From Rhizobiales bacterium Y(2018) (GTDB lineage: Bacteria > Pseudomonadota > Alphaproteobacteria > Rhizobiales > Aestuariivirgaceae): a DNA stretch of 64,000 nucleotides. Every line of letters begins with the position of its first letter. Position 1 is the stretch's first letter. The notes below the pieces were generated by a model. The model saw nothing but the letters and a program-made list of their open reading frames with translations, was not told the DNA's origin and made no database searches. The stretch is from the NCBI GenBank assembly GCA_005502925.1, contig SCPD01000012.1:1-64000 (forward strand). Reading direction: 5' to 3'. Position numbers and translations under genes: made by a program. Shown here piece by piece: positions 12,559 to 27,586 of the stretch.

Positions 12559-12590
12559 CCTGAGCCGAGCGAAACCAGATTATCCGGGGA

Positions 12591-13547
12591 ATGGCCCGTT
12601 TCCTGATCAACCGGCTCATCCAGTCGACGGTTCTCCTCTTCGGAGTCTCGATCGTCGGCTTCGCGCTGATGCATCTGGCGCCGGGAGGACCGCTGGCGGT
12701 CTATACTTTGAACCCGACGGTCACCGCTCAGGATATCGAGCGGATCAAGGTGTTGTTCGGCCTCGATCAGCCCGTCTATGTCCAGTATTTCAAATGGGCC
12801 GGCGGGCTTCTCAGCGGCAACTGGGGCTACAGCTTCTTCGGCGGCCAGCAGGTGCGCGAGATCGTGCTCGACCGCCTGCCGGCCACCTTTCTGCTGATGG
12901 GGACGAGCCTTGCTCTGGCGCTCGTCATCGGTGTCGCCATCGGCACGCTGGCGGCGGTCAAGCGCAATTCGGTCTTCGACTATGCGACCGCGATCGGCGC
13001 CATGATCGCTCTGTCGCTGCCGACCTTCTGGTTCGGCCTTCTCGCCATCTTCTTCTTTGCGCAGACGCTTGGCTGGTTTCCGGCCGGCGGTATGGTGAGC
13101 ATCGGCGATAGCAGTCTGCTCGACCGGCTGCATCATCTGGTGCTGCCGGTCGTCGTGCTGGCGCTGGTGCTGGTGGCGCAATGGAGCCGCTATACGCGCT
13201 CCTCGATGATCGACATCCTCGACCAGGATTTCGTGCGCACGGCGCGCGCCAAGGGCATCAGTCCGTCGCGCGTGCTGGTCAATCACGGGCTCAGGGCGGC
13301 GCTGGTGCCGCTGGTGGCGCTGGCCGGGCTGCAATTGCCGCTCCTCGTCGGCGGCGCGCTGGTGACGGAGACCGTATTCAGCTGGCCCGGCATGGGGCTC
13401 CTGTTCATCTCTGTGCTCAGCACCCGCGACTATCCGGTCCTCATGGCGATCCTGATGGTCGGCGCCGTCGTCGTCGTGCTGGGCAATCTCCTGGCCGACA
13501 TCGTCGTCGCTCTTGTCGATCCGCGGGTGAAGCTCCATGACGAGTGA
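12591..13547 (+). CDS. Peptide-type ABC importer permease (DppB-like)
   Basis: A 318-residue inner-membrane permease with about six transmembrane helices and the cytoplasmic EAA loop near RTARAKGISPSRVLVNHGLR that contacts the ATPases. The N-terminal RFLINRLIQSTVLLFGVS start is typical of DppB/OppB. It lies 32 bases after the binding-protein gene and overlaps the next permease by 11 bases. Confidence 0.93.
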   Translation: MARFLINRLIQSTVLLFGVSIVGFALMHLAPGGPLAVYTLNPTVTAQDIERIKVLFGLDQPVYVQYFKWAGGLLSGNWGYSFFGGQQVREIVLDRLPATFLLMGTSLALALVIGVAIGTLAAVKRNSVFDYATAIGAMIALSLPTFWFGLLAIFFFAQTLGWFPAGGMVSIGDSSLLDRLHHLVLPVVVLALVLVAQWSRYTRSSMIDILDQDFVRTARAKGISPSRVLVNHGLRAALVPLVALAGLQLPLLVGGALVTETVFSWPGMGLLFISVLSTRDYPVLMAILMVGAVVVVLGNLLADIVVALVDPRVKLHDE

Positions 13548-14421
13548 GGCCGTCTTCGATATCCAGGCCGCCGCACCGCCGCGCCGCGTTAGCGCCTTCC
13601 GGCGGCTCCTGCGCCATCGCCTGGCGCTGCTGGCGCTGATCATCCTCGCCGTCCTGGTCATCGGCTCGGCCGGTGCGCCGTGGCTGGCGCCCCATGATCC
13701 GGAAGAGCTCGACATCGCCAACCGCTACGCGCCGCCGCTGAGCGAAGGCCATATTCTCGGCAGCGACGATCTCGGCCGCGATGTACTGACAAGGCTCATG
13801 TATGCCGGCCAGATCTCGCTGTCGGTCGGCATCGCGGCGATGCTGGTGACGGTGATGGTCGGTTTTTCGGTCGGCGCCTTCGCCGCCTATTATGGCGGCT
13901 GGATCGGCACCATCCTGATGCGGCTCACCGACATCATGCTGTGTTTTCCGAGCGTGTTCCTGCTGCTGTTCGTCGCCGCCTTCGTGACGCCGAGCCTCGC
14001 CTCGATGGCGCTGATGATCGGGCTCACCTGCTGGATGGAGATCGCGCGTATCGTCTATTCGCAGATCCTGGTGCTGAAATCGGCCGACTTCATCGCAGCG
14101 GCGCGGATGATCGGCACGCCATCCTGGCGCATCATCCTGCGCCAGATCCTGCCCAATACGCTGGCGCCGGTCCTGGTCGCGGCGACCCTCAACACGGCGA
14201 ACGCCATCCTGCTCGAAAGCTATATCAGCTTTCTCGGCTATGGCATCCAGCCGCCCGCGGCGAGCTGGGGCAATATGCTGACCAATGCGCAGAGCGATTT
14301 CCAGGTCGATCCGTGGCTCGCCGTGTTTCCCGGCCTCGCCATCACGCTGGCGGTGACCAGCTTCAACTTCCTCGGCGACGGACTGCGCGATGCGCTCGAT
14401 CCGCGGATCCGCGACAAATGA
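13537..14421 (+). CDS. Peptide-type ABC importer permease (DppC-like)
   Basis: A 294-residue second permease of the importer. It has the long first periplasmic segment typical of DppC, with HILGSDDLGRDVLTRLMYAG after the first helix, and an EAA loop around AARMIGTPSWRIILRQILPN. Its TGA overlaps the ATG of the following ATPase gene (ATGA), so expression of the two is coupled. Confidence 0.93.
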   Translation: MTSEAVFDIQAAAPPRRVSAFRRLLRHRLALLALIILAVLVIGSAGAPWLAPHDPEELDIANRYAPPLSEGHILGSDDLGRDVLTRLMYAGQISLSVGIAAMLVTVMVGFSVGAFAAYYGGWIGTILMRLTDIMLCFPSVFLLLFVAAFVTPSLASMALMIGLTCWMEIARIVYSQILVLKSADFIAAARMIGTPSWRIILRQILPNTLAPVLVAATLNTANAILLESYISFLGYGIQPPAASWGNMLTNAQSDFQVDPWLAVFPGLAITLAVTSFNFLGDGLRDALDPRIRDK

Positions 14422-15374
14422 CGGGTGAAGCATCCACGCCGCTGCTCAAGGTCGAGAACCTCCTGGTGGCGTTCGGCCGCGCCAAGGCGGTGGACGGCAT
14501 TTCCTTCGACGTCGCGCCGGGCGAGATGCTGGGCCTCGTCGGGGAGTCGGGTTGCGGCAAGTCGACGACGGCGCTGGCGCTGATGCGGCTCATCCGCGAT
14601 GCCGAGATCGGTGGAACCGCTCATCTCAACGGCGTCGAGCTTCTCGGGCTCGACGAAGCGGCGATGCGGGCACGGCGCGGCGCCGACATCGCGATGATCT
14701 TCCAGGATCCGGGGACGGCGCTGCATCCGATGATCCGGGTCGGCGACCAGATCGTCGAAGCGCTGACGGCGCATCTCAATATCTCGCACCGGGAGGCGCG
14801 TAAGCGCGCCATCGATCTCCTGCGCAAGGTCGGCATCGCCGCACCCGAGGAGCGTTTCGCCGTCTATCCGCATGAAATGTCGGGCGGCATGTGCCAGCGC
14901 GTGGTGATCGCCATGGCGATGGCCTGCGCGCCGCGGCTGCTCCTGGCGGACGAGCCGACGACGGCGCTCGACGTCACCGTGCAGGCGCAGATCCTCGAAC
15001 TGCTCCAGGGGCTCGTGCGCGAAGAGGGGATGGGCGTCATCCTCATCACGCATGATCTGGGTGTCGTCGCCGGCATGACCGACCGCGTCGCCGTCATGTA
15101 TGCGGGGGCGATCGTCGAAATGGCGGCGACGGAAGAGCTGTTCGCCCGGCCTCTGCATCCTTACACGCATGGGCTCCTGCGCTCGATCCCGCAGCTCGAC
15201 AGCGGCTGGGACGAGCCGGTGCCGACCATTCCCGGCAGCGTGCAAGGCGCGGAGCTTCAGGCGGGGTGCCGCTTCGCGCCGCGTTGCGCCAAAGCCAGTG
15301 AAGTCTGCCGCACACCACCGGCGCTGCGCGAAATCGGTGAAAACCACTTCGTTTCGTGCTGGAACACGCCATGA
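14418..15374 (+). CDS. Peptide-type ABC importer ATPase (DppD-like)
   Basis: A 318-residue ATPase. Walker A is GESGCGKST, the signature is SGGMCQRV and Walker B is [12 protein letters not shown]. The C-terminal oligopeptide-transporter extension holds several cysteines ([15 protein letters not shown]), as in DppD and DppF. The frame stays open far upstream, but the ATGA overlap at 14418 and the conserved N-terminus ([11 protein letters not shown]) fix the start. The signature carries a Cys where other members often have Arg or Gln. Confidence 0.93.
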
Positions 15375-16327
15375 CCCAGATGCTGATCGAAGCGAAGGGC
15401 CTGGCGCGCCACTATCGCATCAGCCGGCATCGCATTCTGCATGCGCTCGACGGCGTCGATCTCGGCGTGGCGCGCGGCGCGACGCTGGGCCTCGTCGGTG
15501 AATCGGGCAGCGGCAAGAGCACGCTCGGGCGCACGCTGGTCGGGCTGCAGAAGCCGAGCCTGGGCCAGGTGCTGTTCGAAGGCAAAGACACGGCGGCGCC
15601 CGAGCCGTCGTTCATGGCGCGTCTGCGGCGTGAGCGGCAGATCATCTTCCAGGATCCGTCCGGCGCCCTCAATCCGCGCATGACGATCGGCGCCACGGTG
15701 GTGGAACATCTGCGTGTCCAGGGCTGGTCGCGCGCTGATGCCCAAAGCCAGGCCGCGGCGGCGATCGAGCAGGCGGGCCTCGCCACCACCTTCCTGTCGC
15801 GTTATCCGCATGAGATCTCGGGCGGCCAGCGCCAGCGCGCCGTCATCGCGCGCGCCATCAGCACCGATCCGGCCTTCATCGTGGCCGACGAGCCGGTCTC
15901 GGCGCTCGACGTCTCAATCCGGGCACAGATCATGAATCTGCTGCACCAGCTCCAGAGAGAGCGCGGGCTCACGATGCTGTTCATCAGCCACGATCTGAGC
16001 GTCGTCGCGCATATGTGCAGCGACGTGGCGGTCATGCATCTGGGCCGCATCGTCGAGCGGGCGCCGCGCGCGGCGCTGTTCAAGACACCGCGTCATCCCT
16101 ATACCGGCGCCTTGCTGTCGGCGATCCCGATCCCCGATCCGGCGCGTGAGCGCCAGCGCATGCGCATCATCCTCAAGGGTGAGGTGCCCAATCCGGCCAA
16201 CAAGCCGAGCGGCTGCAGCTTCCATACACGGTGCCCGCGGGCCACCGAGCTATGCCGCAGTGTCGATCCACCGCTGCGGCCCATCGGCACGGAACATCAG
16301 ATCGCCTGCCATCATCCCCTCGAATAG
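15371..16327 (+). CDS. Peptide-type ABC importer ATPase (DppF-like)
   Basis: A 318-residue partner ATPase. Walker A is GESGSGKST, the signature SGGQRQRAVIARA, Walker B FIVADEPVSALD, and the C-terminal Cys-rich extension contains GCSFHTRCPRATELC. An ATGA overlap with the preceding gene gives the start at 15371 rather than 15356. It is the last gene of the importer operon and ends seven bases from the convergent ornithine cyclodeaminase homologue, with no room for a separate terminator. Confidence 0.93.
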   Translation: MTQMLIEAKGLARHYRISRHRILHALDGVDLGVARGATLGLVGESGSGKSTLGRTLVGLQKPSLGQVLFEGKDTAAPEPSFMARLRRERQIIFQDPSGALNPRMTIGATVVEHLRVQGWSRADAQSQAAAAIEQAGLATTFLSRYPHEISGGQRQRAVIARAISTDPAFIVADEPVSALDVSIRAQIMNLLHQLQRERGLTMLFISHDLSVVAHMCSDVAVMHLGRIVERAPRAALFKTPRHPYTGALLSAIPIPDPARERQRMRIILKGEVPNPANKPSGCSFHTRCPRATELCRSVDPPLRPIGTEHQIACHHPLE

Positions 16328-16334
16328 GAGGCCG

Positions 16335-17288
16335 TCAGGCAACCGGCGCCAAACGCGCCAGCAAATGGCGCGCGGTGAAGAGATCGAGATGGCTGCCGCC
16401 GACATTCTTGTACATCGTGACCTGCTCGTCCGACGAGCGCCCGGAATGCCGGCCGGTGCATAGATCGAAAAGATCGGCGATGATGTCTTCCCGCGTGACG
16501 AGCCCGTGGGCCAGGGGCGCCGCAATCTCCCCCGATCCTTCGCAGTTCGTCCGGGTATCGACAAAAATCTGACCGGCGCGGCGGACGACGTCGTCATCAG
16601 CCTCGCGCATCTCGGGCAGATAAGCGCCGATCAGGTCGACATGGGCTCCAGGCTTGAGCTGCCGGCCCAGCACCAGGGGCTCGGTCGCCATGGTTACGCA
16701 GGAGACGATGTCGGCCTCGGGCAGGGACGCACGCAGATCGGGAGCGACAGTGAGCTCGGCCGGCAGATTTCGCAGGCTTCTGACCAGGTTCTCGGCTCTC
16801 GCGAGAGTACGGTTCCAGACGAGGACCCGTGTGATGGACGGCCGGACCGCCAGATGCGCGGCGATGACATGCGGCGCCAGCCCGCCGGCGCCGATCACCA
16901 TGAGCGTATTTGCATCGCGGCGCGCCAGGAAATCGGCGGCCAGGGCCGAATCCGCCGCTGTCTTGCGGAAGGTGAGCGCCGCGCCATCAGCCGTGAGAAG
17001 CGGCGCGCCCGTCCTGCCGCTGATCAGCGCAACCATCCCCTGCACCGAGGGTTGCGGAGGATTGAGCGCCAGATTGCCCGGAAAGACCCCGACGAGCTTG
17101 ACGGCGATGAGATCGCCGCTCGCCCAGGCGATAAGCGAGACGAATTTGTTGGCGTCGTCGTGATCATCGCTCATCACCTCGACACGGCTCTGCGGCATCA
17201 GATCGGCGCGATGGGCGGCGCGCAGCGCTTCGATCAGGCCCCGATAGTCGAGCAGGCGGTCGACGGTTTCGGCATCGGCATGCATCAT
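16335..17288 (-). CDS. Ornithine cyclodeaminase / mu-crystallin family protein
   Basis: A 317-residue NAD(P)-dependent enzyme of the ornithine cyclodeaminase family. It has the substrate-side KLVGVFPGN stretch near residue 65 and a Rossmann motif VIGAGGLAPHVIAAHLA near residue 130. Members deaminate ornithine to proline, reduce imines or use lysine and other amino acids. It is the last gene of the polar amino-acid importer operon (12-base gap after the ATPase), so it probably acts on an amino acid imported or released there. Specificity cannot be read from the sequence. ATG at 17288 or 17285. Confidence 0.85.
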   Translation of the reverse strand: MMHADAETVDRLLDYRGLIEALRAAHRADLMPQSRVEVMSDDHDDANKFVSLIAWASGDLIAVKLVGVFPGNLALNPPQPSVQGMVALISGRTGAPLLTADGAALTFRKTAADSALAADFLARRDANTLMVIGAGGLAPHVIAAHLAVRPSITRVLVWNRTLARAENLVRSLRNLPAELTVAPDLRASLPEADIVSCVTMATEPLVLGRQLKPGAHVDLIGAYLPEMREADDDVVRRAGQIFVDTRTNCEGSGEIAAPLAHGLVTREDIIADLFDLCTGRHSGRSSDEQVTMYKNVGGSHLDLFTARHLLARLAPVA

Positions 17289-17300
17289 GGTGCATCCAGT

Positions 17301-18071
17301 TCAGATGACACGGGCGAGAAAAGTCTTGGTGCGGCTGTGCCGCGGATGGCTGAGCACGTCCCTGGGATGGCCTTCCTCCACGATGACACCCTGATCCATG
17401 AAGACCAGGTGATCGGCGACGTCGCGGGCGAAGCTCATCTCGTGGGTGACCACCACCATGGTCATGCCGTCCTCGGCGAGCGCGCGCATCACCGCCAGCA
17501 CTTCGCCGACGAGCTCGGGATCGAGCGCCGAGGTCGGCTCGTCGAAGAGCATCAGCGCCGGCTGCATGGCGAGCGAGCGGGCGATGGCGACGCGTTGCTG
17601 CTGGCCGCCGGAGAGCTGCCTCGGATAATAATGCGCTCGGTCCGCCAGCCCGACCTTTTCGAGAAGCGCTTCCGCCTCGGTGATCGCCTCCGCCTTCTTC
17701 TTGCGCTTCACCACGATCGGCGCTTCGATGACGTTCTCGAGCGCGGTCTTGTGCGGGAACAGGTTGAAGCTCTGGAAGACCATGCCCATGCGCTGGCGCT
17801 GCACCGCAAGCTCGTTGAAGGACATCTCATAGAGCGTCGAGCCCCGCCATCTGACCCCGACCGGCTCGCCGGCGAGAAAGACGGCGCCTGAATCCGGCGT
17901 CTCGAGATAATTGAGGCAGCGCAGCAGCGTGCTCTTGCCCGAGCCGGAAGGACCGACGATGCACATGACCTCGCCAGTCTCGATCGCGAGGTCGATATTG
18001 CGCAACACCTGGTGGGTGCCGAAGCTCTTCGACAGCCTCTCCACCTTGAGCAGGGGCGTGGCCGCGGTCAC
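17301..18071 (-). CDS. Polar amino-acid ABC importer ATPase
   Basis: A 256-residue ATPase of the HisP/GlnQ group. Walker A is GPSGSGKST, the signature [14 protein letters not shown] and Walker [13 protein letters not shown]. It overlaps the upstream permease gene by four bases. An insertion of basic residues (VVKRKKKAE) lies in the helical domain, not unusual in this group. It energises the importer whose promoter carries the LacI-type operator at 19997-20012. Confidence 0.93.
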
Positions 18072-18997
18072 GAGCGGGCCTCATGCCGGCGCAGTGACCA
18101 GAATTTGCTCTTGAAGAGCGAGCTCAGGACGGCGCTCAGGGCCAGCGGCCGGCCATTGAGGCGATGTTCGATATAATGCTCGGCGAAAGTCAGCACGGTG
18201 GAGAGGATCAGATACCAGATGGTGGCGACGATGAGGAGCGGAATGGTCTGATAGGTCCGGGAATAGATCATCTGCGCCGAATAGAGAAGATCGGGCAGCG
18301 CCAGCACGCTGACCAGCGAAGTGAATTTCAGCATCGAGATCGTGTCATTGCCGATCGGCGGGATGAGGATCCGAAGCGCTTGCGGCAGGACGATGCGCCG
18401 CAGGATCTGCGCACGCGTCATGCCGAGTGTTGCCGCCGCCTCGGTCTGGCCGACGCTGATCGCCTGGATGCCGGCGCGGATCATCTCGGAGGCATAAGCG
18501 CTTTCGGTGAGCGCGAGACCGAGGATCGCGGCGCTGAAGGGCGTGATCAGCTGATTGGTGCTGGCCTCCCAGAATTGCGGGCCGAAGGGAATGCCGATGG
18601 AGACGGTCGGGATGAGGAGGGCGAGATTGTACCAGAAGACAAGCTGGACCAGAGGCGGCACGCCGCGGAAGAACCATATCCACAGCCAGCTCGCCGCCTG
18701 GAAGACCGGATTGCTCGAAAGCCGCATGACCGCCAGCACGACGCCGATGGCGAGCCCGAAGATCATGGCGAGGAATGTGAGCAGTAGCGTGCGCCCGAGG
18801 CCTTTGAGGATCTCGGGGCTCAGCATGTAATGCGCCACCACCGGCCATTGCAGATTCTCGTTGGTGACGAGGAGGCGGACAAAGAGAAAGACGAAGAGGA
18901 AAAGCGCCGCCCCGCCGATCCAGCGTGCCGGATGCCGGACCGGTACCGGCCTGGTAGCGTGGATATCGGGGCGGGACGACGGTGATGATTGGCCCAT
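18068..18997 (-). CDS. Polar amino-acid ABC importer permease
   Basis: A 309-residue HisM/GltK-type permease. Membrane helices start near [12 protein letters not shown], with the family motif [19 protein letters not shown] and the EAA-like loop [22 protein letters not shown]. The start at 18997 has GGAG six bases upstream and avoids the overlap with the binding-protein gene that an upstream start at 19069 would create. Only one permease gene is present, so it presumably works as a homodimer. Confidence 0.9.
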
Positions 18998-19037
18998 GCG
19001 GCACTCCGGGCTGGATGGACCTTGCGGAAGGCCGGTG

Positions 19038-19916
19038 TTACTTCGGATCGGGATGAGCCTGGTCGACAAGGACCGCCTTGTCCAGCATCCCGCTGCCGTC
19101 GACGCCCCACTTGGCCATCAGCTGCTTGTAGCTTCCATCATCCATCATAGACTGAAGCGCATCCCTCAGAACAGGTCCGATCGGATCGCCGCGGCGCACG
19201 CCGATGCCGTTGTAGACGGCGTTGCTGACAAAGGTGGAAACGTCGAAGGTTCCGGTCTGCTTGGCCATGTATTGCAATTTGGCGGAACCGGCGGCGACGA
19301 GTTCGACGCGCCCCGAGGAGACCGCGAGCTCGGCTGCGTTCTGTGTCGTGAATTGCTGCAGGTCGATGGGCTTGGCCCCCTGGCAGGTCTCAGCGCTCAC
19401 CTTCGTCAGATACTGGAAGTCCCAGGCCCCGGTCAGCACGGCGACACTGTGGCCGCACAGATCCTTCTCGTTCTGGATGTTGAAGTTCTTGCCCTTGAGC
19501 GAGGCATAGGCCGTGCCCTCCCGGCGCTGGGGCACGAAATCGAGCGACTGCAGGCGCTCCTCGGTGACGCCGAAAGAAGAGAAGCCGGCATCGAAGCGCT
19601 TGCTGACGAGGCCCGGAATGATGATCTCGAAGCTCGTCGCCTCGAATTTGAAGGGGACGCCGAGTTTTTCGGACATGGCCTTGGCCATGTCGACGCTCCA
19701 GCCCTTGAGCTCGCCATTCTCGACGAATTCGTCCGGAGGCCAGTCATTGAAGACGGCGACATTGACGCCATTGGTCTTGTACTGGTCGGGCAGGGCGTCG
19801 TGCAGTTTCTGGTCGACGCCGCCGGCCACCGCCGCGGTGGTTGCGATGGCGATGATGGCGCCGGCGGCGAGCATGGCGCTGCCGCAGTTGCGCAAGGTCT
19901 GCATGCCGTAGGTCAT
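19038..19916 (-). CDS. Polar amino-acid-type ABC importer binding protein
   Basis: A 292-residue family 3 periplasmic binding protein. A signal peptide covers about residues 1-32 (hydrophobic AMLAAGAIIAIATTAAVAGG). The mature protein shows VNVAVFNDWPPDEFVENGELKGWSVDMAKA, typical of amino-acid and opine binders. It is the first gene of the importer operon and lies behind operator-like sites recognised by the divergent LacI regulator. Context suggests fructosyl-amino acids as ligand, by inference. Confidence 0.92.
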   Translation of the reverse strand: MTYGMQTLRNCGSAMLAAGAIIAIATTAAVAGGVDQKLHDALPDQYKTNGVNVAVFNDWPPDEFVENGELKGWSVDMAKAMSEKLGVPFKFEATSFEIIIPGLVSKRFDAGFSSFGVTEERLQSLDFVPQRREGTAYASLKGKNFNIQNEKDLCGHSVAVLTGAWDFQYLTKVSAETCQGAKPIDLQQFTTQNAAELAVSSGRVELVAAGSAKLQYMAKQTGTFDVSTFVSNAVYNGIGVRRGDPIGPVLRDALQSMMDDGSYKQLMAKWGVDGSGMLDKAVLVDQAHPDPK

Positions 19917-19996
19917 GACGTTCTCCCTCTTGCTTGAGCCTGTTCTTTTCGCGCCGGACAGGAGCCGGTACGAGACTGTTGCTCGCCGCGGCTCGA

Positions 19997-20012
19997 TGTG
20001 CGAACGTTCTCA
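19997..20012. promoter_or_regulatory. LacI-type operator upstream of the importer operon
   Basis: TGTGCGAACGTTCTCA contains the palindromic core GAACGTTC. Its exact reverse complement occurs at 22120-22135 between the kinase and deglycase genes. It sits between the divergent importer and LacI genes. Finding the same 16 bases twice, both in intergenic regions of one gene group, strongly suggests a shared repressor site. Confidence 0.8.
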
Positions 20013-20054
20013 CAATACAAACATGAGCCTAACCATGCCGTCAAGCCTGAAATG

Positions 20055-20066
20055 GAGAAAGTTCTC
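20055..20066. promoter_or_regulatory. Second, weaker LacI-type operator
   Basis: GAGAAAGTTCTC resembles the symmetrical form GAGAACGTTCTC of the site at 19997-20012, differing at one base. The start-to-start distance of about 56 bases could allow paired binding or looping in the importer-regulator intergenic region. It is less certain than the two exact sites. Confidence 0.5.
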
Positions 20067-20156
20067 AGATGCGGGCAAGGGCGTTCCCCTGGTTTGCAGC
20101 CGCCTCTGTCCACGCTAGATGAGAAGTTCCGGCGATTTCAAAGACAACAATGAGCC

Positions 20157-21251
20157 ATGGCTGAGAAACGCACCGACAAAGTGACCATTACCGAAGTCGC
20201 GCTGCTCGCCGGCGTCTCGACCGCGACCGCGGGGCGGGTGCTGGGCGGCTATGGCTATGCGAGCGAAGAGATCAAGAAACGGGTAAAGGCCTCAGCCGAG
20301 CGGCTGGGCTATCGTCCCAATCTCCTGGCCCGTGGCCTCATCACCGGCAAGACCAGGACGATCGGCGTCGTCGCCGGCGACATCCAGAGCCCGTTTTATT
20401 CCAGCATCCTGCGCGGTATTGCCGATGTGGCGCGCGCCGAAGGCTTCGGGGTACTGCTGACGAATAGCGACGAGCTCCTGGCGCGCGAGCTCGAGGCGGT
20501 GCAATTGCTGCTCGAAAAGCAGGTCGACGGCCTGATCGTGGCGCCCTGCGATACCGAGCGTTCCGATCACTTGCGAAAGGCGCTGAAGGGGGGCTGCCCG
20601 ATCGTGCAGTTCGACCGCATGGTCAAGGGACTCGGCGCCGACGCGGTCACCGTCGACAATCGCAAGGCCTCGCGCGAGGCGATATCGAGCCTGATAGATG
20701 CCGGCCATCGGCGCATCGCCATCCTCGCCGAACTGGAGCGTTGGGATTCGGGCGACATCGCTTCCTTCATCGCCCGTGTGACCGCGCGCAGCATCGAACC
20801 CGCCACGCTGTTCCCAAGCTGGCAGCGTCTCTTCGGTTATGTCGAAGCGCATCTTTCGGCCGGGATCGACCTCGATCGCGCGCTCATCGGCCGGGTCGGC
20901 GCCTATTCGCTGGAGGCGGCGCGCCTGCAGGCCTTGCATCTGTTGCGGCTTCCCGACCGGCCCACCGGCTTGTTCAGCGCCGACGGGCTGATGACGGCAG
21001 GGGCGGTCGATGCCATCACCTCGCTGGGTGTGCAGATCCCCGACCAGCTTTCGATGATCGGCTTCGACGATCTCGACTGGATGAGCTTTCTCAAGCCCCA
21101 GATCACGGCGGTGGTGCAGCCGGTGACCGCGATGGGCCAGACAGCGGCGCGCCTGATGCTTGAAAGGATCGCCGGCAGCGACAGTCCGCCCCGTCACGTC
21201 ACGCTCGAGCTGGCGCTCGCCCGTCGCGGGTCGGTTTCAAAGCCTGCTTGA
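20157..21251 (+). CDS. LacI-family transcriptional regulator
   Basis: A 364-residue LacI/GalR regulator. The DNA-binding helices are at residues ~9-30 (VTITEVALLAGVSTATAGRV), followed by the hinge LGYRPNLLARGLITGKTRTIGVV and a periplasmic-binding-like effector domain. It is divergent from the importer operon and convergent with the kinase gene, overlapping its end by 15 bases. The operators at 19997, 20055 and 22120 place the importer, the kinase and the deglycase under its likely control. The effector would be a glycated amino acid or its phosphate, by inference. Confidence 0.92.
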   Translation: MAEKRTDKVTITEVALLAGVSTATAGRVLGGYGYASEEIKKRVKASAERLGYRPNLLARGLITGKTRTIGVVAGDIQSPFYSSILRGIADVARAEGFGVLLTNSDELLARELEAVQLLLEKQVDGLIVAPCDTERSDHLRKALKGGCPIVQFDRMVKGLGADAVTVDNRKASREAISSLIDAGHRRIAILAELERWDSGDIASFIARVTARSIEPATLFPSWQRLFGYVEAHLSAGIDLDRALIGRVGAYSLEAARLQALHLLRLPDRPTGLFSADGLMTAGAVDAITSLGVQIPDQLSMIGFDDLDWMSFLKPQITAVVQPVTAMGQTAARLMLERIAGSDSPPRHVTLELALARRGSVSKPA

Positions 21252-22094
21252 TGACGATATCTTGCGCTTCAAGGCGTCGATATCGGCGGTAATGGCGATC
21301 GGCGCGCCATGGCCCACCGCGCCGAAATAGCGGCATGTGTCGGCGGCGGCACGGGCCGCCGCTGAAAGGATCTCCGGCGGGTCTTCCCCGGCGAGGAGGC
21401 CATAAAGTGTGCGGGCGATGAAGGTGTCGCCGGCGCCCAGCGTGTCGACGGCTTCGATGGGATGGGCTGCGACGTGCCAGCGCTCGGCGTCATGGGCGAG
21501 CATCGCGCCCTGTCGCCCGCGGGTCACCAGCACCCATTGCGCGCCGCCGTCAATGAGCTCTCCACTGACCGCCGCAACCTCATCATCGGAAAGATCGCCG
21601 CCCGACACCGAGGCGAGCAGACAGAAAGGGGCGATGGCGCGGCGATGTTCGCGCTCGCGGCGGATCGAAAAATCGTAGGAGAGGCGAGCCCGTTTCGCGA
21701 TGACCCCCAGATGCGCATCGAGGCCGCTCGACTGACCGACATGCACCGCCGAAAAGGTTTCAAGGAAGGCGAGATCAACGTCATCCGGCGCGAACATCGA
21801 CACGCCGAGGTCGAAACTCAGGAACAGGCGCTCGGCGTTGCGGTGGCCGATCACGCAATAGGCAGTCGGTCCGTCGAGCCGGCGCAAATGGCTGACATCG
21901 ATATCCTCGGCCTCCAGCGCCTGTTGGATAACATCGCCGGCGCGATCTTTGCCGATGGCGCCGATATAGGCGGACAGCGCGCCGAAGCGGCGGGAGAAGA
22001 CCGAGACATTCAGGCAATTGCCGCCCGGGTACATTTCTTCCCGCGACAAATAACAATCGACGACATTGTCTCCCAGCGCGGCAATTTTGATCAT
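21237..22094 (-). CDS. frlD-like: PfkB-family kinase, fructoselysine 6-kinase-like
   Basis: A 285-residue ribokinase-family kinase. N-terminal LGDNVVDCY and MYPGGNCLNVSVF match the fructoselysine kinase (FrlD) group, and DTLGAGDTF at residues ~217-225 holds the anion hole and catalytic Asp223. FrlD phosphorylates fructoselysine on C6 of the sugar. It diverges from the deglycase-like gene, with an operator between them, which supports a shared pathway. Another fructosyl-amino acid is equally possible as substrate. Confidence 0.82.
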   Translation of the reverse strand: MIKIAALGDNVVDCYLSREEMYPGGNCLNVSVFSRRFGALSAYIGAIGKDRAGDVIQQALEAEDIDVSHLRRLDGPTAYCVIGHRNAERLFLSFDLGVSMFAPDDVDLAFLETFSAVHVGQSSGLDAHLGVIAKRARLSYDFSIRREREHRRAIAPFCLLASVSGGDLSDDEVAAVSGELIDGGAQWVLVTRGRQGAMLAHDAERWHVAAHPIEAVDTLGAGDTFIARTLYGLLAGEDPPEILSAAARAAADTCRYFGAVGHGAPIAITADIDALKRKISSSSRL

Positions 22095-22108
22095 GAAGGA
22101 CTTTTACA

Positions 22109-22135
22109 TTGACAATATATGAGAACGTTCGCACA
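22109..22135 (+). promoter_or_regulatory. Promoter element and LacI-type operator before the deglycase gene
   Basis: A perfect -35 box TTGACA lies at 22109-22114 and is followed by the operator TGAGAACGTTCGCACA at 22120-22135, the reverse complement of the site at 19997-20012. A repressor bound there would cover the spacer region. The -10 box is poor. The kinase gene on the other strand starts at 22094, so one site could control both directions. Confidence 0.75.
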
Positions 22136-22165
22136 TTGATTTCAGCCTGTCAATCGAGTGAGAAG

Positions 22166-23167
22166 ATGAAAACTGCCCTGAACCCGGATGTCGAAAGCGC
22201 CCTGCGGCCGCTGTCCGGCCGCGCCATCTCGCATGTGTTTCTCGTAGCCTGCGGCGGCTCTCTGTCGATCATGCAGGGCGGGAAATATTTCATCGACCGC
22301 CATTCGGCGAAATTGTCCTCGGACCTCTTCAACGCCGATGAATTCGTCTGCCGCGACCCGAAAAGACTCGGCCCGGACGCCCTCGTGATCCTGTGCTCGC
22401 AGACCGGAACGACACGCGAGACGGTGGGCGCGGCCGAGCATGCGCGCGGCAAGGGCGCGCTGACCATTGCCATGACGCTCGATCCGGTCTCGCCACTGGC
22501 GAAAGCCTGCGAATTCACCGTCGCCTATCAGGCCTCCTACACGACCGGCATCGCCATCGACGCGGCCGACAGCAACTATGCGGTTCTCTATATGCTGCTG
22601 GCCGGCCTGCTGCGCATCACCGACGGCGTCGACCTGACGGGGCCGTTGCTCACGAGCCTCTCGGCTCTTCAGCCGGCGATCGACAGGGCGCATCAGGTTT
22701 TTGCCGGCCGTTTCGCGTCCTTCGCGCCGCGCTTCAGGGACAAGTCCGCCATCTACGCGCTGGCCAGCGGCCCCGCCTATGGGGCCGCTTATTCCTTTTC
22801 GACCTGCGTGCTCATGGAGATGCAGCGGTACGATTCGCAGGCCATCCACGCGAATGAATTCTTCCACGGGCCGTTCGAAGTCGTCGACGAGAATGCCGCC
22901 TTTATCGTGCTCGTCGGCAGCGACGAGACGCGCCGCCTCGGTGAACGGGCGCGCGATTTCCTGCTCCGCTTCGGTTCGCGTGACAACATTCTCGTCCTCG
23001 ACAGCGATGAGCTCGATCTCGCCGCCATCGATCCGCGCTTCCAGGCCTATCTGCTGCCGCTCGTCTTCTTCGACGCGTTGTGGAAATTCGCCTACCGATT
23101 GGCGGATCTGCGGGGCCGGCCGATGCTCGAAGGCCGCCGCTATATGAAGAAGATCAGCGGCTACTGA
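22166..23167 (+). CDS. frlB-like: SIS-domain deglycase, fructoselysine-6-phosphate deglycase-like
   Basis: A 333-residue protein with two SIS sugar-isomerase domains, close in size to FrlB. SIS motifs include VACGGSLSIMQGGKYF near residue 28 and VILCSQTGTTRETV near 73. The motif AIHANEFFHGPFE near residue 228 is the active-site stretch shared by FrlB-type deglycases. These enzymes split a 6-phosphofructosyl-amino acid into glucose 6-phosphate and the free amino acid. The start at 22166 has GAGTGAGA upstream and leaves the operator outside the gene; a start at 22109 would put it inside. Confidence 0.85.
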   Translation: MKTALNPDVESALRPLSGRAISHVFLVACGGSLSIMQGGKYFIDRHSAKLSSDLFNADEFVCRDPKRLGPDALVILCSQTGTTRETVGAAEHARGKGALTIAMTLDPVSPLAKACEFTVAYQASYTTGIAIDAADSNYAVLYMLLAGLLRITDGVDLTGPLLTSLSALQPAIDRAHQVFAGRFASFAPRFRDKSAIYALASGPAYGAAYSFSTCVLMEMQRYDSQAIHANEFFHGPFEVVDENAAFIVLVGSDETRRLGERARDFLLRFGSRDNILVLDSDELDLAAIDPRFQAYLLPLVFFDALWKFAYRLADLRGRPMLEGRRYMKKISGY

Positions 23168-23191: not shown

Positions 23192-23962
23192 TCAAAGCGC
23201 GGTGAACCCACCATCGATCAGGATCGTCTCGCCGCAGACGAGGTCGGAAGCCGGGGAGGCGAGATAGAGCACGAGGTCGGCCACTTCCTGCGGCTTGCCG
23301 AAGCGGCCGAGCGGCAGCTTGTCGAGCATCGGCTTGCCCTTGGCCGGGTCGCCCCAGACCTGCTCGCCCATCGGCGTCAGGATGACGGTCGGGCAGATGG
23401 CGTTGGACTGGATGTTGTGCTTCGCCCATTCGCAGGTCATCGTCTTGGTCAACATGTTGAGACCGCCCTTCGAGGAGGAATAGGCGGCATGCCCGTCGAG
23501 AGCGACGACGCCGGCCTGGGACGAGATGTTGATGATCTTGCCGGAGCGCTGGGCGATCATCTTGGGCGCCAGTTCCCGGGCGAGTAGGAAGGGGGCGCGG
23601 AGATTGACCGCCATGGTCTTGTCCCAGTCCTCGATCGAGGCTTCGAGCAGATTGTCAATCAGCGCAATGCCGGCATTGTTGACCAGGATGTCGATGGTGC
23701 CGAAGCTCTGCAGTGAGGTGCGCGCCGCCGCGACCGGTCCATCGGCGCTGGCGAGATCGGCTTCGATAGTGACGCATTTGCGCCCCAGTGCTTCGACGGC
23801 TTGCTTCACCTCGGCGAGGCCGGCCGCATCGCGCCCGACGGCGGCGATATCGGCGCCGGCATCGGCCAGCACTTTGCAGACATCGAAGCCGATGCCCTTG
23901 GTGGCGCCGGTGACGAGAGCGACCTTGCCGGTGAGCGCGAAGCGTTTGATCCAGTCAGCCAT
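23192..23962 (-). CDS. Short-chain dehydrogenase/reductase
   Basis: A 256-residue classical SDR. The NAD(P) motif GATKGIGFDVCKVLADAGAD starts near residue 18, NNAGIA lies near residue 95, and the catalytic SSQ...YSSSK segment is at about 145-167. It overlaps livM by eight bases and is the last gene of the importer operon, so it probably oxidises or reduces an intermediate of the compound imported. Substrate unknown; similarity to gluconate/3-oxoacyl-ACP reductase types is only general. Confidence 0.88.
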   Translation of the reverse strand: MADWIKRFALTGKVALVTGATKGIGFDVCKVLADAGADIAAVGRDAAGLAEVKQAVEALGRKCVTIEADLASADGPVAAARTSLQSFGTIDILVNNAGIALIDNLLEASIEDWDKTMAVNLRAPFLLARELAPKMIAQRSGKIINISSQAGVVALDGHAAYSSSKGGLNMLTKTMTCEWAKHNIQSNAICPTVILTPMGEQVWGDPAKGKPMLDKLPLGRFGKPQEVADLVLYLASPASDLVCGETILIDGGFTAL

Positions 23963-24923
23963 GAGTCTTGTCTTTGTCCTTGTCGAAAGCGATGCCGGGC
24001 GAACGCTCGGGCAGGAGTCCTGAGCGGTATTTCTGCAGAACGAACTGCAATAATAAGCCGATCAGCAACATGCGGATATAGGACGAACGTGTGGCGAACT
24101 CGGCCGGCAGGCGGTTGGTGACGATTTCGGTCAACGACCAGATGGCCCATACCGACAGCGCGCCGACAATGGCGCCCTTGTTGTTGCCGCTGCCGCCCGC
24201 CATCAGCATCACCCAGACCAGGAAGGTAATGAGGAGCGGCTCGGTCGCCTCAGGCGAGAGGAAGCGGAAGTAATGAGCGCTCAAGGCGCCGGCGACGCCC
24301 ATGAGCGCAGCGCCGATGACGAAGGTTTGCAGTCTGAAGCTGTCCACATCTTTGCCGACGGCGCGCGCGGCGTCTTCATTGTCGCGCACGGCGCGTAACG
24401 TGCGGCCCCAGGGGCTGTCATAAAGCCGGTTGCAGACGAGATAGACGATGGCGACGATCACCCACACGAAAGCCAGAAAGAGAATATCCGCCTCGCGCCC
24501 CTGGAGCAGGCCGTCGAAGGGCCGCGGGATATTGGTGATGCCGAGGCTGCCATTGGTGAGCCAGTCCTCGTTGACGATCACCATGCGCAGGATCTCGGCG
24601 ATGCCGATCGAGGCCATGGCGAGATAATCGCTCTTGAGCCTGATGCAGATTTTGGCGACGGCCCAGCCGGTGAGACCGGCGGTCACGGCGGCGGCGATGA
24701 TGCCGACCAGGACGGGAAGCTCGTAGCCGCCGAGATGCGTCTGCGCCGGGGCGGCGGTGAGGAGTGCCGAGGTATAAGCGCCGACGGCGAAGAAGCCGGC
24801 GATGCCGGCATTGAACAATCCGCCATAGCCCCATTGCACATTGAGGGCGAGACAGAGAATGGCATAGATGCCGGCCATGATGAGAAAGCCGACCAGGAAG
24901 AAAAGAAGGCCTACCGGATCCAT
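23955..24923 (-). CDS. Branched-chain-type ABC importer permease (LivM-like)
   Basis: A 322-residue hydrophobic permease of the LivM group, with YAILCLALNVQWGYGGLFNAGIAGFFAVG-like helices (the first cytoplasmic half) and the conserved loop near SPWGRTLRAVRDNEDAARAVG that docks the ATPases. It shares one base with the upstream livH-like gene and overlaps the SDR gene downstream. These importers take hydrophobic, aromatic or amide-type amino compounds. Confidence 0.92.
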   Translation of the reverse strand: MDPVGLLFFLVGFLIMAGIYAILCLALNVQWGYGGLFNAGIAGFFAVGAYTSALLTAAPAQTHLGGYELPVLVGIIAAAVTAGLTGWAVAKICIRLKSDYLAMASIGIAEILRMVIVNEDWLTNGSLGITNIPRPFDGLLQGREADILFLAFVWVIVAIVYLVCNRLYDSPWGRTLRAVRDNEDAARAVGKDVDSFRLQTFVIGAALMGVAGALSAHYFRFLSPEATEPLLITFLVWVMLMAGGSGNNKGAIVGALSVWAIWSLTEIVTNRLPAEFATRSSYIRMLLIGLLLQFVLQKYRSGLLPERSPGIAFDKDKDKTHG

Positions 24924-25813
24924 CAGAAGAGCCTCCCTTTGAGCAGGCCTTGCGGGCGGAAGATGAGCAGGATCACCATCATCAGGAAGGCGGTCGCGGT
25001 CTTGTAGCTCGGATTGATCAAGGGCTCGTCGGTAAGCCAGGGATAGGATGAGAGCTCCTCGACCAGCCCGATGACCATACCGCCCAAAAGCGCGCCCATG
25101 GGTTTGCCTATGCCGCCTAATATGGCGGCCGCGAACATCGGCAGGATCAGGTTCCAGCCGAGATTGGGCTGGATATTGGTGTCGAGGCCGGCAAGCACGC
25201 CGGCGATGGCCGCGAGGCTGCCGCCGATGATCCAGGTGGCGCGCACGATTTTCTCGGTATCGAGGCCGGCGACGCGGGCGAGCTCGGCATTGTCGGAGAC
25301 GGCGCGCATCGAGCGGCCGGTCTGGGTGCGTGACAGGAAATAATGAAGCGCGATGGCGACCCCGATGATGATCGCAATGGCTTCTAGATGAAGCAGGGAA
25401 ACGCGAATCAAATCAAAGAGAACGACGGGTTTCTGCACGCCGCGGATGAACACCTCGTTCTGCGAGCCCCAGACGAGCTGGATGAGCGAGCGGAAGATCA
25501 GTGCCACGCCGAAGGAGGCGATCACGGTGTAGATGGTCGGCAGTTCGCGCAGCGGCTTGTAGAAGACCTTGTCGACCGCGAGCACCGCCAGCACGGCGAA
25601 TACGATGCCGACCGGCAGCGCCAGCAGCGGATGAAGCCCTGAGACCCAGACGGCGGTCAGTGTGCCATAGGCGCCGAGCGTCATCACATCGCCATGGGCG
25701 AAATGAGCGAAGCGCAAGATGCCGAAGATCATCGAGATGCCGATGGCGCCCAACGCATAGATCGACCCGAGCGCCAGTCCGGGGATCAGGTAGAAATTGA
25801 TGAACTCCATCAT
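24923..25813 (-). CDS. Branched-chain-type ABC importer permease (LivH-like)
   Basis: A 296-residue permease. Motifs include YALGAIGISMIFGILRFAHFAHGD and the ATPase-contact loop TQTGRSMRAVSDNAELARVAG. Two adjacent ATGs (25813 and 25810) fit the LivH N-terminus MMEFINFYLIPG; the longer frame upstream reads into a palindromic repeat and is unlikely to be translated. The repeat separates this gene from the ATPase gene livF. Confidence 0.92.
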   Translation of the reverse strand: MMEFINFYLIPGLALGSIYALGAIGISMIFGILRFAHFAHGDVMTLGAYGTLTAVWVSGLHPLLALPVGIVFAVLAVLAVDKVFYKPLRELPTIYTVIASFGVALIFRSLIQLVWGSQNEVFIRGVQKPVVLFDLIRVSLLHLEAIAIIIGVAIALHYFLSRTQTGRSMRAVSDNAELARVAGLDTEKIVRATWIIGGSLAAIAGVLAGLDTNIQPNLGWNLILPMFAAAILGGIGKPMGALLGGMVIGLVEELSSYPWLTDEPLINPSYKTATAFLMMVILLIFRPQGLLKGRLF

Positions 25814-25832
25814 GACGGGAGCGCTCTCCGAT

Positions 25833-25999
25833 TTTCCCCTTCTCCCGTTGCGAAGCAATGGGAGAGGGTGCCCGAAGGGCGGGTGAGGGCTCTTTGGTTC
25901 AGCAAGACATGTTCTTTGAGATTAGTTTGATGACGCGAAAGAGCCCTCATCCGGCCTGTCGGCCACCTTCTCCCATCCTTCGGACGGGAGAAGGGGAAA
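25833..25999. repeat. Long imperfect inverted repeat inside the liv-type operon
   Basis: A ~167-base palindromic element. The outer arms are TTTCCCCTTCTCCCGT (25833-25848) against ACGGGAGAAGGGGAAA (25984-25999), and an inner pair is TGAGGGCTCTTT (25884-25895) against AAAGAGCCCTCA (25938-25949). Short G/C-rich hairpins lie between. It looks like a non-coding dispersed element, perhaps MITE-like, inserted between livF and livH. The TTCTCCC/GGGAGAAGGGG theme recurs near 29950-30090. Confidence 0.7.
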
Positions 26000-26027
26000 T
26001 TCTGTGTGAGCTTCGCGAAGTCCTTCC

Positions 26028-26750
26028 TCATGACGGGCGGCTGCCTCCCAGGAAAGAGCGGCGGATCTCGTCATTGGCGAGGAGGTTGGCGCCGGTGTCG
26101 GAGGCGAAGTTGCGGCCATTGACCAGCACATAAGCGCGGTCGGCGATGCTGAGCGCCTGCCTGGCATTCTGCTCGACCATCAGGATCGTAATGCCGGTTT
26201 GGCGGATGGCGAGGATCAAATCGAAGATGCGCTCGAGATAAGCCGGCGACAGGCCGGCGGTCGGCTCGTCGAGCAGCAACAATTTGGGCTCGCTCATCAG
26301 GGCGCGGCCGAGCGTCACCATCTGGCGCTGGCCGCCCGACAATTCACCGGCCGGCTGGTTGAGCTTGGCTTTGAGATCGGGGAAGAGGGTGAGCACGCTT
26401 TCCTCGACCTCTGCCCGGTTGCGCGGCGGGGCGGCATAGGTGCCGATATCGAGATTTTCCCTGACGGTGAGCGAGGGAAAGATATTGCGCGTCTGCGGCA
26501 CCGCGCAGATGCCCATCGGCACCAGCTTCTGGGTGGCGATGCCGGCAATTTCCTGGTTCGCGAAGCGGATCGAGCCTGAGAGGATGCTGGTCAGCGCAAA
26601 GACCGATTTGAGCACCGTCGACTTACCGGCCCCATTCGGGCCGATGACGACGATGATCTCCTTAGGCGCCACCAGGAGATTAATGTTGTCGATGATCGGC
26701 AGACCACCATAGCCGGCGGTGAGCCCATCGATGGCGAGGAGGGGGCTCAT
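26028..26750 (-). CDS. Branched-chain-type ABC importer ATPase (LivF-like)
   Basis: A 240-residue ATPase. Walker A is GPNGAGKST, the signature LSGGQRQMVTLGRALM and Walker B LLLLDEPTAGLSP; the size is typical of LivF. It overlaps livG by four bases. About 214 bases, mostly a palindromic repeat, separate it from the permease gene downstream, an unusual break within a liv operon. Confidence 0.93.
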   Translation of the reverse strand: MSPLLAIDGLTAGYGGLPIIDNINLLVAPKEIIVVIGPNGAGKSTVLKSVFALTSILSGSIRFANQEIAGIATQKLVPMGICAVPQTRNIFPSLTVRENLDIGTYAAPPRNRAEVEESVLTLFPDLKAKLNQPAGELSGGQRQMVTLGRALMSEPKLLLLDEPTAGLSPAYLERIFDLILAIRQTGITILMVEQNARQALSIADRAYVLVNGRNFASDTGANLLANDEIRRSFLGGSRPS

Positions 26751-27520
26751 GTGCCGACCTCATATTTACCACCGCCGAAATAGGCCTCGATGACCCGCTC
26801 GTCGTGACGCACCTCGTCAATGGTGCCGCGGGTGAGGACGCGGCCTTGCGCCATCACGATGACATCCGAGCAGAGCTTGGAAACATAATCGAGATCATGC
26901 TCGATGAGGCAGAAGGTGAAGCCGCGCTCCTCATTGAGGCGTTTGATCTTCTCGGCGATCTTGCCGAGCAGCGTGCGGTTGATGCCGGCGCCGATCTCAT
27001 CGAGCAAAATGAGGCGTGGCTCGCGCATCAGGCTGCGGCCAAGCTCGAGCAGCTTCTTCTGGCCGCCCGAGAGATTGCCGGCCTTTTCGCTTTTCACATG
27101 GGAAAGCTCGAGGAAGTCGAGCGTGTCGCGGGCGCGCTCATAGACGGCGCGCTCCTCGCGCAGGAACAGGCCGCGGCGCAGCACGGCGTTGAAGGCGTTC
27201 TCGCCGCGCGATGTGTCGCCGGCGACCATCAGATTTTCGAGTACGGTCAAGGCGCCGAATTCATGCGGGATCTGGAAGGTGCGGGCGAGGCCTTTGTGGC
27301 TGCGCTCATGCGGTGGCAGCCGGGTGATGTCGTCGCCTTCGAGCAGGACGCGGCCGGACGTCGGGAAGAGCCTGCCGGCAATGATGTTGAACAGCGTCGT
27401 CTTGCCGGCGCCATTGGGGCCGATGAGCCCGGTGATGATGCCCTTGCCGATGGCAAAGCTGACATCATCGACGGCCGCGAGGCCGCCGAAGCGCATGACG
27501 ATGTTTTCGAGCGTGATCAC
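26747..27520 (-). CDS. Branched-chain-type ABC importer ATPase (LivG-like)
   Basis: A 257-residue ATPase with Walker A GPNGAGKTT, the LivG-specific RTFQIPHEFGALTVLENLMVA region, the signature NLSGGQKKLLELGRSLM and Walker B LILLDEIGAGIN. The usual Pro after Glu of Walker B is replaced by Ile, which is common in some LivG proteins. It follows the binding-protein gene after a strong hairpin. Confidence 0.93.
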   Translation of the reverse strand: MITLENIVMRFGGLAAVDDVSFAIGKGIITGLIGPNGAGKTTLFNIIAGRLFPTSGRVLLEGDDITRLPPHERSHKGLARTFQIPHEFGALTVLENLMVAGDTSRGENAFNAVLRRGLFLREERAVYERARDTLDFLELSHVKSEKAGNLSGGQKKLLELGRSLMREPRLILLDEIGAGINRTLLGKIAEKIKRLNEERGFTFCLIEHDLDYVSKLCSDVIVMAQGRVLTRGTIDEVRHDERVIEAYFGGGKYEVGT

Positions 27521-27542
27521 AAGCCGTCTGTCTACAGAAAGG

Positions 27543-27572
27543 CGAAGGGCCCCGCTTTGGCGGAGCCCTTCG
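27543..27572 (-). terminator. Hairpin between binding-protein and ATPase genes
   Basis: A stem of eight pairs (CGAAGGGC against GCCCTTCG), one mismatch and four more pairs (CCGC/GCGG) closes on a four-base loop. It lies just after the stop of the binding-protein gene and has no long T tract. Such hairpins often stabilise or partly terminate the message so that the binding protein is made in excess of the membrane subunits; that role is inferred. Confidence 0.6.
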
Positions 27573-27586
27573 GCGCTGATGCATTA

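Follow-up and report, generated by a model that had tools for sequence, protein, structure and literature searches.

What does a LacI-type regulator control when its gene lies between an amino-acid-type importer and a sugar kinase/deglycase pair, and what part does a protein of the ornithine cyclodeaminase (OCD) superfamily play in such company? Both questions are raised by a gene cluster at positions 16335-23167 of a 64,000-nucleotide stretch of DNA (hereafter the window) from the soil bacterium Rhizobiales bacterium Y(2018), contig SCPD01000012.1, positions 1 to 64,000 of the forward strand. Our analysis makes it likely that the cluster is a local LacI-type regulon through which alpha-glycated amino acids (Amadori compounds) are imported and degraded, with the OCD-superfamily protein acting as an imine reductase. 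The argument is built on operator conservation, protein families, active-site residues, and gene linkage, all read from sequence, and from these we infer binding and repression by the regulator, the nature of the inducer, the identity of the substrate, and the reaction of the reductase. The cluster is very probably a genuine LacI regulon for Amadori compounds and of a known kind, with a widely conserved operator, exchangeable importers of the polar-amino-acid-type (PAAT), tripartite ATP-independent periplasmic (TRAP), and Soc types, and the regular presence of an OCD-superfamily reductase as its new features.

The importer genes form a minus-strand operon encoding a binding protein, a single permease, an ATPase, and the OCD-superfamily protein, and lacI is divergent from this operon. 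Beyond lacI lie the genes for a PfkB kinase and a SIS protein, which are mutually divergent. Family searches bore out the kinds of gene named in a first-pass annotation of this DNA, with the start of frlB to be shifted to about ATG 22166. The features are as follows.

16335..17288, minus strand: OCD-superfamily gene, last of the importer operon; predicted NADPH-dependent imine (ketimine) reductase (Pfam OCD_Mu_crystall, 162.5 bits; NCBIfam)
17301..18071, minus strand: ATPase of a PAAT ATP-binding cassette (ABC) importer (family searches; 53% identical to the ATPase part of SocB)
18068..19069, minus strand: single PAAT permease (family searches; the true start may lie downstream of the listed TTG)
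19038..19916, minus strand: periplasmic binding protein, SBP_bac_3 (sbp) (Pfam; Arg121 kept, Gly210 at the canonical amine-binding Asp position)
19997..20012, plus strand: operator 1, between sbp and lacI; palindrome at 19999-20012
20054..20067, plus strand: weaker second operator copy, with 2 mismatches; position kept in loci L034 and L035
20157..21251, plus strand: LacI-family regulator (family searches; helix VSTATAGRVLG)
21237..22094, minus strand: FrlD-like PfkB kinase (PfkB, 114.3 bits; best NCBIfam match fructoselysine 6-kinase)
22118..22135, minus strand: operator 2, between the divergent frlD and frlB; exact 16-mer at 22120-22135
22166..23167, plus strand: predicted FrlB-like SIS deglycase (start ATG 22166; best solved relative 3eua; FraB Glu/His pair)

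The first-pass annotation had proposed that these genes share an exact operator, and the sequences lie where it had placed them. The 16-mer TGTGCGAACGTTCTCA occurs at 19997-20012 on the plus strand and as its exact reverse complement, on the minus strand, at 22120-22135; it encloses the near-perfect palindrome TG(A/C)GAACGTTCTCA, and a search of the window allowing three mismatches returned four matches against 0.40 expected, namely these two sites, each on both strands. The one-mismatch core noted at 20055 is likewise real (GAGAAAGTTCTC, 20055-20066). It belongs to a third, weaker site located 55 bases from the first, where the 14-mer at 20054-20067 has two differences from the palindrome TGAGAACGTTCTCA, and two congeners (L034 and L035) carry a two-mismatch copy at the equivalent position. 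A mechanical open reading frame (ORF) for frlB starting from TTG 22109 would read through operator 2. Since six close FrlB homologues (alignment A1) begin within two residues of ATG 22166, operator 2 is most likely intergenic, between frlD and frlB. The genome scan for further copies that the annotation had suggested, run over 7,103,066 bases, returned the exact 16-mer at the two cluster sites only. An operator dispersed throughout the genome was considered and rejected: the only other place within two mismatches of the 16-mer (C11:742380) and the one 14-mer within one mismatch outside the cluster (C37:216301 of G000, the same genome) both sit inside ORFs of other kinds, which by eye look OppA-like and RidA-like, respectively. 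Genomes G001 and G003 have three more 14-mer places beyond the cluster.

Is the operator kept at the same genes elsewhere? Loci were sampled via FrlB relatives (the best 80 of 95 from genome contigs, plus six from plasmids), and 83 of them (1.6 Mb) were scored; L112 was dropped as too short, L032, L033, L116, and L117 as being of other kinds, and L081, L099, L114, and L115 as doubles of L027, L031, L034, and L035, respectively. The protein counts given below as free of doubles likewise leave out L081 and L099. With at most one mismatch, the palindrome TGAGAACGTTCTCA occurs 168 times in 77 of the 83 loci, compared to a mean of 0.165 and a maximum of 2 for 200 control palindromes made from the permuted half-site. 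The great majority of the sites (149 of 168) lie upstream of a match to frlD, frlB, sbp, or lacI, with 19 elsewhere. Some of the latter precede a frlC-like gene (for example, L028:6309, L075:8315, and L083:8313), which is therefore probably a member of the regulon where present. When two mismatches are allowed, a site is found upstream of frlB/frlD in 80 of the 83 loci and upstream of the window-type sbp in 49 of 50, the sole miss (L077) being a gene truncated by a contig end. The aligned sites give a consensus of about TGTGAGAACGTTCKCACA. In some loci frlB and a GlpD-like gene diverge from each other, and the frlB site is then common to both. Gene order is highly variable among the loci, which indicates that the sites have stayed at their genes through rearrangement.

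The regulators tell a similar story. In the set of 86 that is left after removing doubles, those with an AACGTT operator directly upstream carry the helix VSTATAGRVLG in 49 of 50 cases, and those with an ACCGGT operator carry VSKATAARVLG in seven of eight, with one unparsed sequence in each group. The socR promoter of the Agrobacterium plasmid pAtC58 carries TGAGACCGGTCTCA, and the SocR helix reads VSKATAAR. Regulators with VSRATAARALN are found near TGAGATCGATCTCA sites preceding a second SIS gene, an association by position only. Helix residues and operator centre thus change together, which fits the prediction for a direct regulator–operator pair; in addition, a LacI protein with a helix-turn-helix and a ligand domain is encoded beside its presumed targets, and a conserved palindrome with a central CG is present at the target promoters. 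The footprint and the co-change of helix and operator together argue for the earlier proposal that one LacI regulon ties the importer to FrlB/FrlD.

An apparent gammaproteobacterial cousin of the regulon was seen on the Klebsiella pneumoniae plasmid p578-2 (L118:2803-9101), which encodes a LacI protein with 44% identity together with SIS, PfkB, PAAT importer, and TIM-barrel genes, and which carries TGATAACGTTATCA and a related palindrome beside lacI; no OCD match was found within the stretch of this plasmid that was examined.

What, then, does the regulon act on? The Amadori pathway proposed in the first pass is well supported by homology. The best relative of the FrlB-like protein in the Protein Data Bank is 3eua ("putative fructose-aminoacid-6-phosphate deglycase"), which we take to be B. 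subtilis FrlB, with 283 bits vs. 183 for the next. Its Glu218 and His234 align exactly with Glu214 and His230 of FraB, presumably the general acid/base pair of SIS deglycases, and are invariant in all seven aligned sequences. PMC9609667 states that FraB and FrlB have the general acid and base in common. Gene neighbourhoods were tabulated for the 68 of 82 loci whose sequence extends 6 kb or more to either side of frlB; a FrlC-like gene is present in 22 of these, and FrlC-, SocA-, SocB-, SocC-, and SocD-like genes occur inside or beside some clusters. The alternative that a different phosphosugar (e.g. an amino sugar) is handled, with a likeness to FrlB and FrlD at the family level only, draws on the breadth of the SIS and PfkB families and on scores below the frl equivalog cut-offs: the deglycase reaches 112.9 bits against a cut-off of 430 for the NCBIfam fructoselysine-6-phosphate deglycase, which makes it a relative rather than that equivalog, and the kinase reaches 152.6 bits against 247 for its best model, FrlD (fructoselysine 6-kinase), while its best solved relatives are other kinds of sugar kinase, with low scores. 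We consider this alternative unlikely in view of the 100-bit lead of 3eua, the matching Glu/His pair, the FrlC-like genes, the soc genes adjoining some clusters, and the SocA-type importer that accompanies the cluster in Mesorhizobium.

In this Mesorhizobium form, LacI, operator, and FrlB/FrlD of the same cluster are joined to a SocA-type binding protein, which in L046 scores 406 bits to the solved deoxyfructosyl-amino-acid-binding protein and is 68% identical to SocA, as well as to a SocB-like fusion (72–73%; two checked) and a SocD-like oxidase (60–62%; three checked). In Agrobacterium tumefaciens F2, where cluster genes are already annotated as ocd, frlR, and frlC, the cluster adjoins genes annotated as a deoxyfructosyl-amino acid transporter and a fructosyl amino acid oxidase, and these match genes beside repABC on pAtC58. 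The latter are socR-socABCD, which serve deoxyfructosyl-glutamine according to PMC4231840. This use of the soc genes, together with the at least 19 plasmid records, mostly from Rhizobiaceae, that match FrlB at 53–65% among the best 40 of 662 records, would fit a plant-tumour opine (mannopine or deoxyfructosyl-glutamine) as substrate rather than Amadori compounds from decaying plant matter at large. We find such a restriction rather unlikely, because the window binding protein is not SocA-like and the cluster is also found in Rhodobacterales, for example, in the marine genera Oceanicola and Nioella.

The last gene of the importer operon had been taken in the first pass for an ornithine cyclodeaminase homologue, an identity that the active site speaks against. 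Cyclodeaminases have a catalytic Asp, which we take to be Asp228 in the P. putida enzyme. The window protein has Tyr at this position, as do 64 of 65 orthologues (doubles removed), the remaining one having Trp, whereas Asp is present in all six readable proteins above the cut-off of the OCD model, one of them from this genome (a seventh reference, L123, whose locus does not fill the slice, was left out). The window protein is 24–26% identical to those six and scores 93.1 bits against the cut-off of 350 for the NCBIfam OCD model NF005762, and the cofactor loop carries Asn-Arg, of the NADPH type, in 65 of 65 orthologues (WNR motif in the window protein). The Pfam family name and plasmid annotations reading "ornithine cyclodeaminase" would favor a true cyclodeaminase that converts released ornithine to proline; we rejected this candidate on account of the missing Asp, the low identity, the NADPH-type loop, and the NF005762 score, and regard it as very improbable. 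The top NCBIfam model for the window protein is instead NF004793 (pyrroline-/piperideine-2-carboxylate reductase), which matches 27 of 27 members scanned, and the OCD-superfamily protein is probably an NADPH-dependent imine reductase. Kinetics of NADPH-dependent pyrroline-2-carboxylate reduction are reported for 16 OCD-superfamily proteins in PMC4113996.

The OCD gene is present in 57 of the 68 neighbourhoods, in differing orders and operons, and 44 of the 68 have it together with the window-type importer. The combination of importer and OCD gene, which the first-pass annotation did not know as a described one, is therefore not unusual; genes of the cluster are also already annotated in A. tumefaciens F2, and ABC uptake of Amadori compounds as such is known from FrlONM (PMC12632257). 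Neighbourhoods with a TRAP importer only have the OCD gene in 13 of 13 cases, and it is present in 57 of the 58 loci that have either a PAAT importer of the window type or a TRAP importer; the exception (L031) has an OCD gene and a TRAP importer about 12 kb away on the same record. The nine loci with a SocA-type importer only have the OCD gene in none and a SocD-like gene in eight; as all nine are from one genus, Mesorhizobium, the OCD-less form may reflect a single event. The remaining locus, L050, has no recognised importer, OCD, or SocD-like gene.

Relatives of the OCD gene also occur away from FrlB/FrlD. A search covered 397 genomes, with at most five candidates scored per genome, and 14 stretches with relatives of 44–66% identity were examined, one of which (L150) has the full cluster. 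In the other 13, FrlB is absent from the stretch, which in some cases ends early at a contig edge. One of these (L146) has a set of TRAP, OCD, pipecolate-oxidase-like, and LacI genes, on a contig equal in length to that of L037, where a FrlB/FrlD pair is present, and six (L148, L149, L151, L154, L156, and L158) have an OYE-type match (30–50%) near the OCD relative, four of them with a GlpD-like gene as well. The gene thus looks like a module that is coupled, but not confined, to the regulon. Such relatives, including the paralogue in this genome, are what might be expected if the gene were a passenger of the importer operon with no role in the pathway, but its presence in 57 of 68 neighbourhoods in varied orders and operons, and in all 13 TRAP-only loci, makes us think this quite unlikely.

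The paralogue itself lies on C5 (L154:3896-9164), where a second gene for an OCD-type reductase, 48–50% identical, directly follows an OYE-type gene, with a gene for a GlpD-like flavoprotein nearby.

Further hints as to the substrate come from the importers. Binding proteins of the HisJ/LAO type presumably grip the carboxylate of their ligand with an Arg and its free amine with an Asp. All 49 window-type binding proteins (doubles removed) retain the Arg, while the Asp position is occupied by Gly in 41, Ala in six, and Ser in two; the Asp is kept in SocA and in 16 of 16 SocA-like proteins. SocA binds an Amadori compound yet keeps the Asp, so losing this residue does not in itself signal Amadori binding; the loss points to a ligand that lacks a free amine of the usual kind, perhaps an imino-acid conjugate. 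Importer and enzyme also vary jointly, PAAT or TRAP going with OCD and SocA/SocB with SocD in Mesorhizobium, on a constant background of LacI, operator, and FrlB/FrlD, and a pipecolate-oxidase-like gene is present in eight of the 68 neighbourhoods. Taken with the substrates of the reductase family, the loss of the Asp in 49 of 49 proteins, this co-change, and the pipecolate-oxidase-like gene hint that the window-type regulon might serve a class of Amadori or N-alkyl compounds that the known Frl and Soc systems do not, with cyclic imino acid conjugates such as fructosyl-proline, -pipecolate, or -hydroxyproline as the likeliest candidates and the OCD-superfamily NADPH imine reductase as an undescribed obligatory step. 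We put this forward as a speculation that is rather unlikely; if it is true, the forms with TRAP transport would represent an Amadori importer of a new type.

A plasmid of Microvirga sp. VF16 (L160:2039-11085) has a TRAP importer, an OCD gene, a second lacI, an ABC binding protein, a fused permease/ATPase, and a FAD oxidoreductase within 10 kb, and this set adjoins an frl-like cluster, such that apparent Amadori systems are piled up on one plasmid.

How might the parts work together? We propose that the LacI protein binds the palindrome (about TGTGAGAACGTTCKCACA) in both intergenic regions, sbp–lacI and frlD–frlB, and that it would keep the importer, the regulator, and the enzymes repressed as long as neither a fructosyl-amino acid nor its phosphate is available. 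The Amadori compound would enter through the PAAT importer, the FrlD-like kinase would phosphorylate its sugar, and the FrlB-like SIS enzyme would split the product into glucose 6-phosphate and the amino acid. The OCD-superfamily imine reductase may use NADPH to process the amino-acid part of the class of substrates that the PAAT and TRAP importers bring in.

Several observations, besides the frl scores below cut-off, weigh against this proposal. Scans of both operators found no sigma-70-like promoter at either; three of the 83 loci (L072, L105, and L107) have no frlB/frlD site; and several loci hardly differ from one another (L060-L063, for example), so that none of our counts is a count of independent events. 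In 28 of the 86 regulators there is no operator in the stretch searched directly upstream, and nine of these have the window's helix, VSTATAGRVLG, mostly in another gene order. Another nine are of the Mesorhizobium form (VSSATAGRVLG), with their sites at frlD/frlB, and the remainder have VSRATAARALN (four), VGTATAGRVLG (three), VSVATASRVLG (two), or VSTATTGRVLG (one). The reductase assignment is affected by the NF004793 score of the window protein, 316.9 bits and thus just under the cut-off of 322, and by only one of eight cluster orthologues scanned singly (L041, 328 bits) passing it. The window binding protein, finally, is 22% identical to SocA; a close kinship of the two had been expected but was not found, and the window-type proteins lack the amine-binding Asp of SocA.

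Among known systems, the FrlONM importer of B. subtilis is a sugar-type ABC system and FrlR a GntR-type regulator, where the window has PAAT and LacI types, and to our knowledge the B. subtilis frl operon contains no OCD-superfamily gene. Shared with this operon (frlBONMD-frlP) are the FrlB deglycase, the FrlD kinase, an ABC importer, a dedicated repressor, and alpha-glycated amino acids as substrates (PMC12632257). The socR-socABCD genes of pAtC58 resemble the window in having an amino-acid-type ABC importer and a LacI regulator for an Amadori compound, SocR being 39% identical to the window regulator, with the related operator TGAGACCGGTCTCA; they differ in their fused permease and ATPase and in the distant binding protein (22%). 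SocAB have a role in uptake, and SocC and the FAD amadoriase SocD, whose roles were reportedly described by Baek in 2003, stand where the window has kinase and deglycase. The chemistry of kinase plus SIS deglycase is shared with E. coli frl and Salmonella fra, and an annotated FraB is 37.5% identical to the window SIS protein with the same Glu/His pair, but these systems act on fructoselysine or fructose-asparagine and have other transporters and regulators. Among NCBIfam families, the last gene comes closest to the OCD-superfamily pyrroline-2-carboxylate reductases; these were found via gene neighbourhoods of the proline racemase superfamily, and deglycation is unmentioned in the available portion of PMC4113996.

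No description of a regulon combining LacI, FrlB, FrlD, and OCD was found in the literature searched, most subscription journals lying outside it, and the terms frl, fructosel-, Amadori, ornithine, and opine are absent from the main text of a paper on LacI regulons (PMC4052901). The present analysis suggests that rhizobia, agrobacteria, and Rhodobacterales share a regulon for amino acids conjugated with sugars, one that joins the kinase/deglycase route of the Bacillus type to amino-acid-type and TRAP importers. It also flags a group of "ornithine cyclodeaminase" annotations as probable imine reductases, and provides an operator motif that can be used for genome-by-genome prediction of the regulon.

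A second SIS/PfkB pair, 29–33% identical, is found in the same genome (L116; C33:28000-44000) with two permease-like matches nearby, and this region has zero operator copies at up to three mismatches. Among close genomes, FrlB is 83% identical to that of Taklimakanibacter lacteus and 97% identical to that of Aestuariivirga sp. YIM B02566. The cluster is flanked in the window by an oligopeptide-type ABC importer (10888-16327) on one side and, on the other, by a short-chain dehydrogenase/reductase (SDR) gene and a branched-chain-type ABC importer (23192-28789); the SDR match was not seen in L035 and is present in L034.

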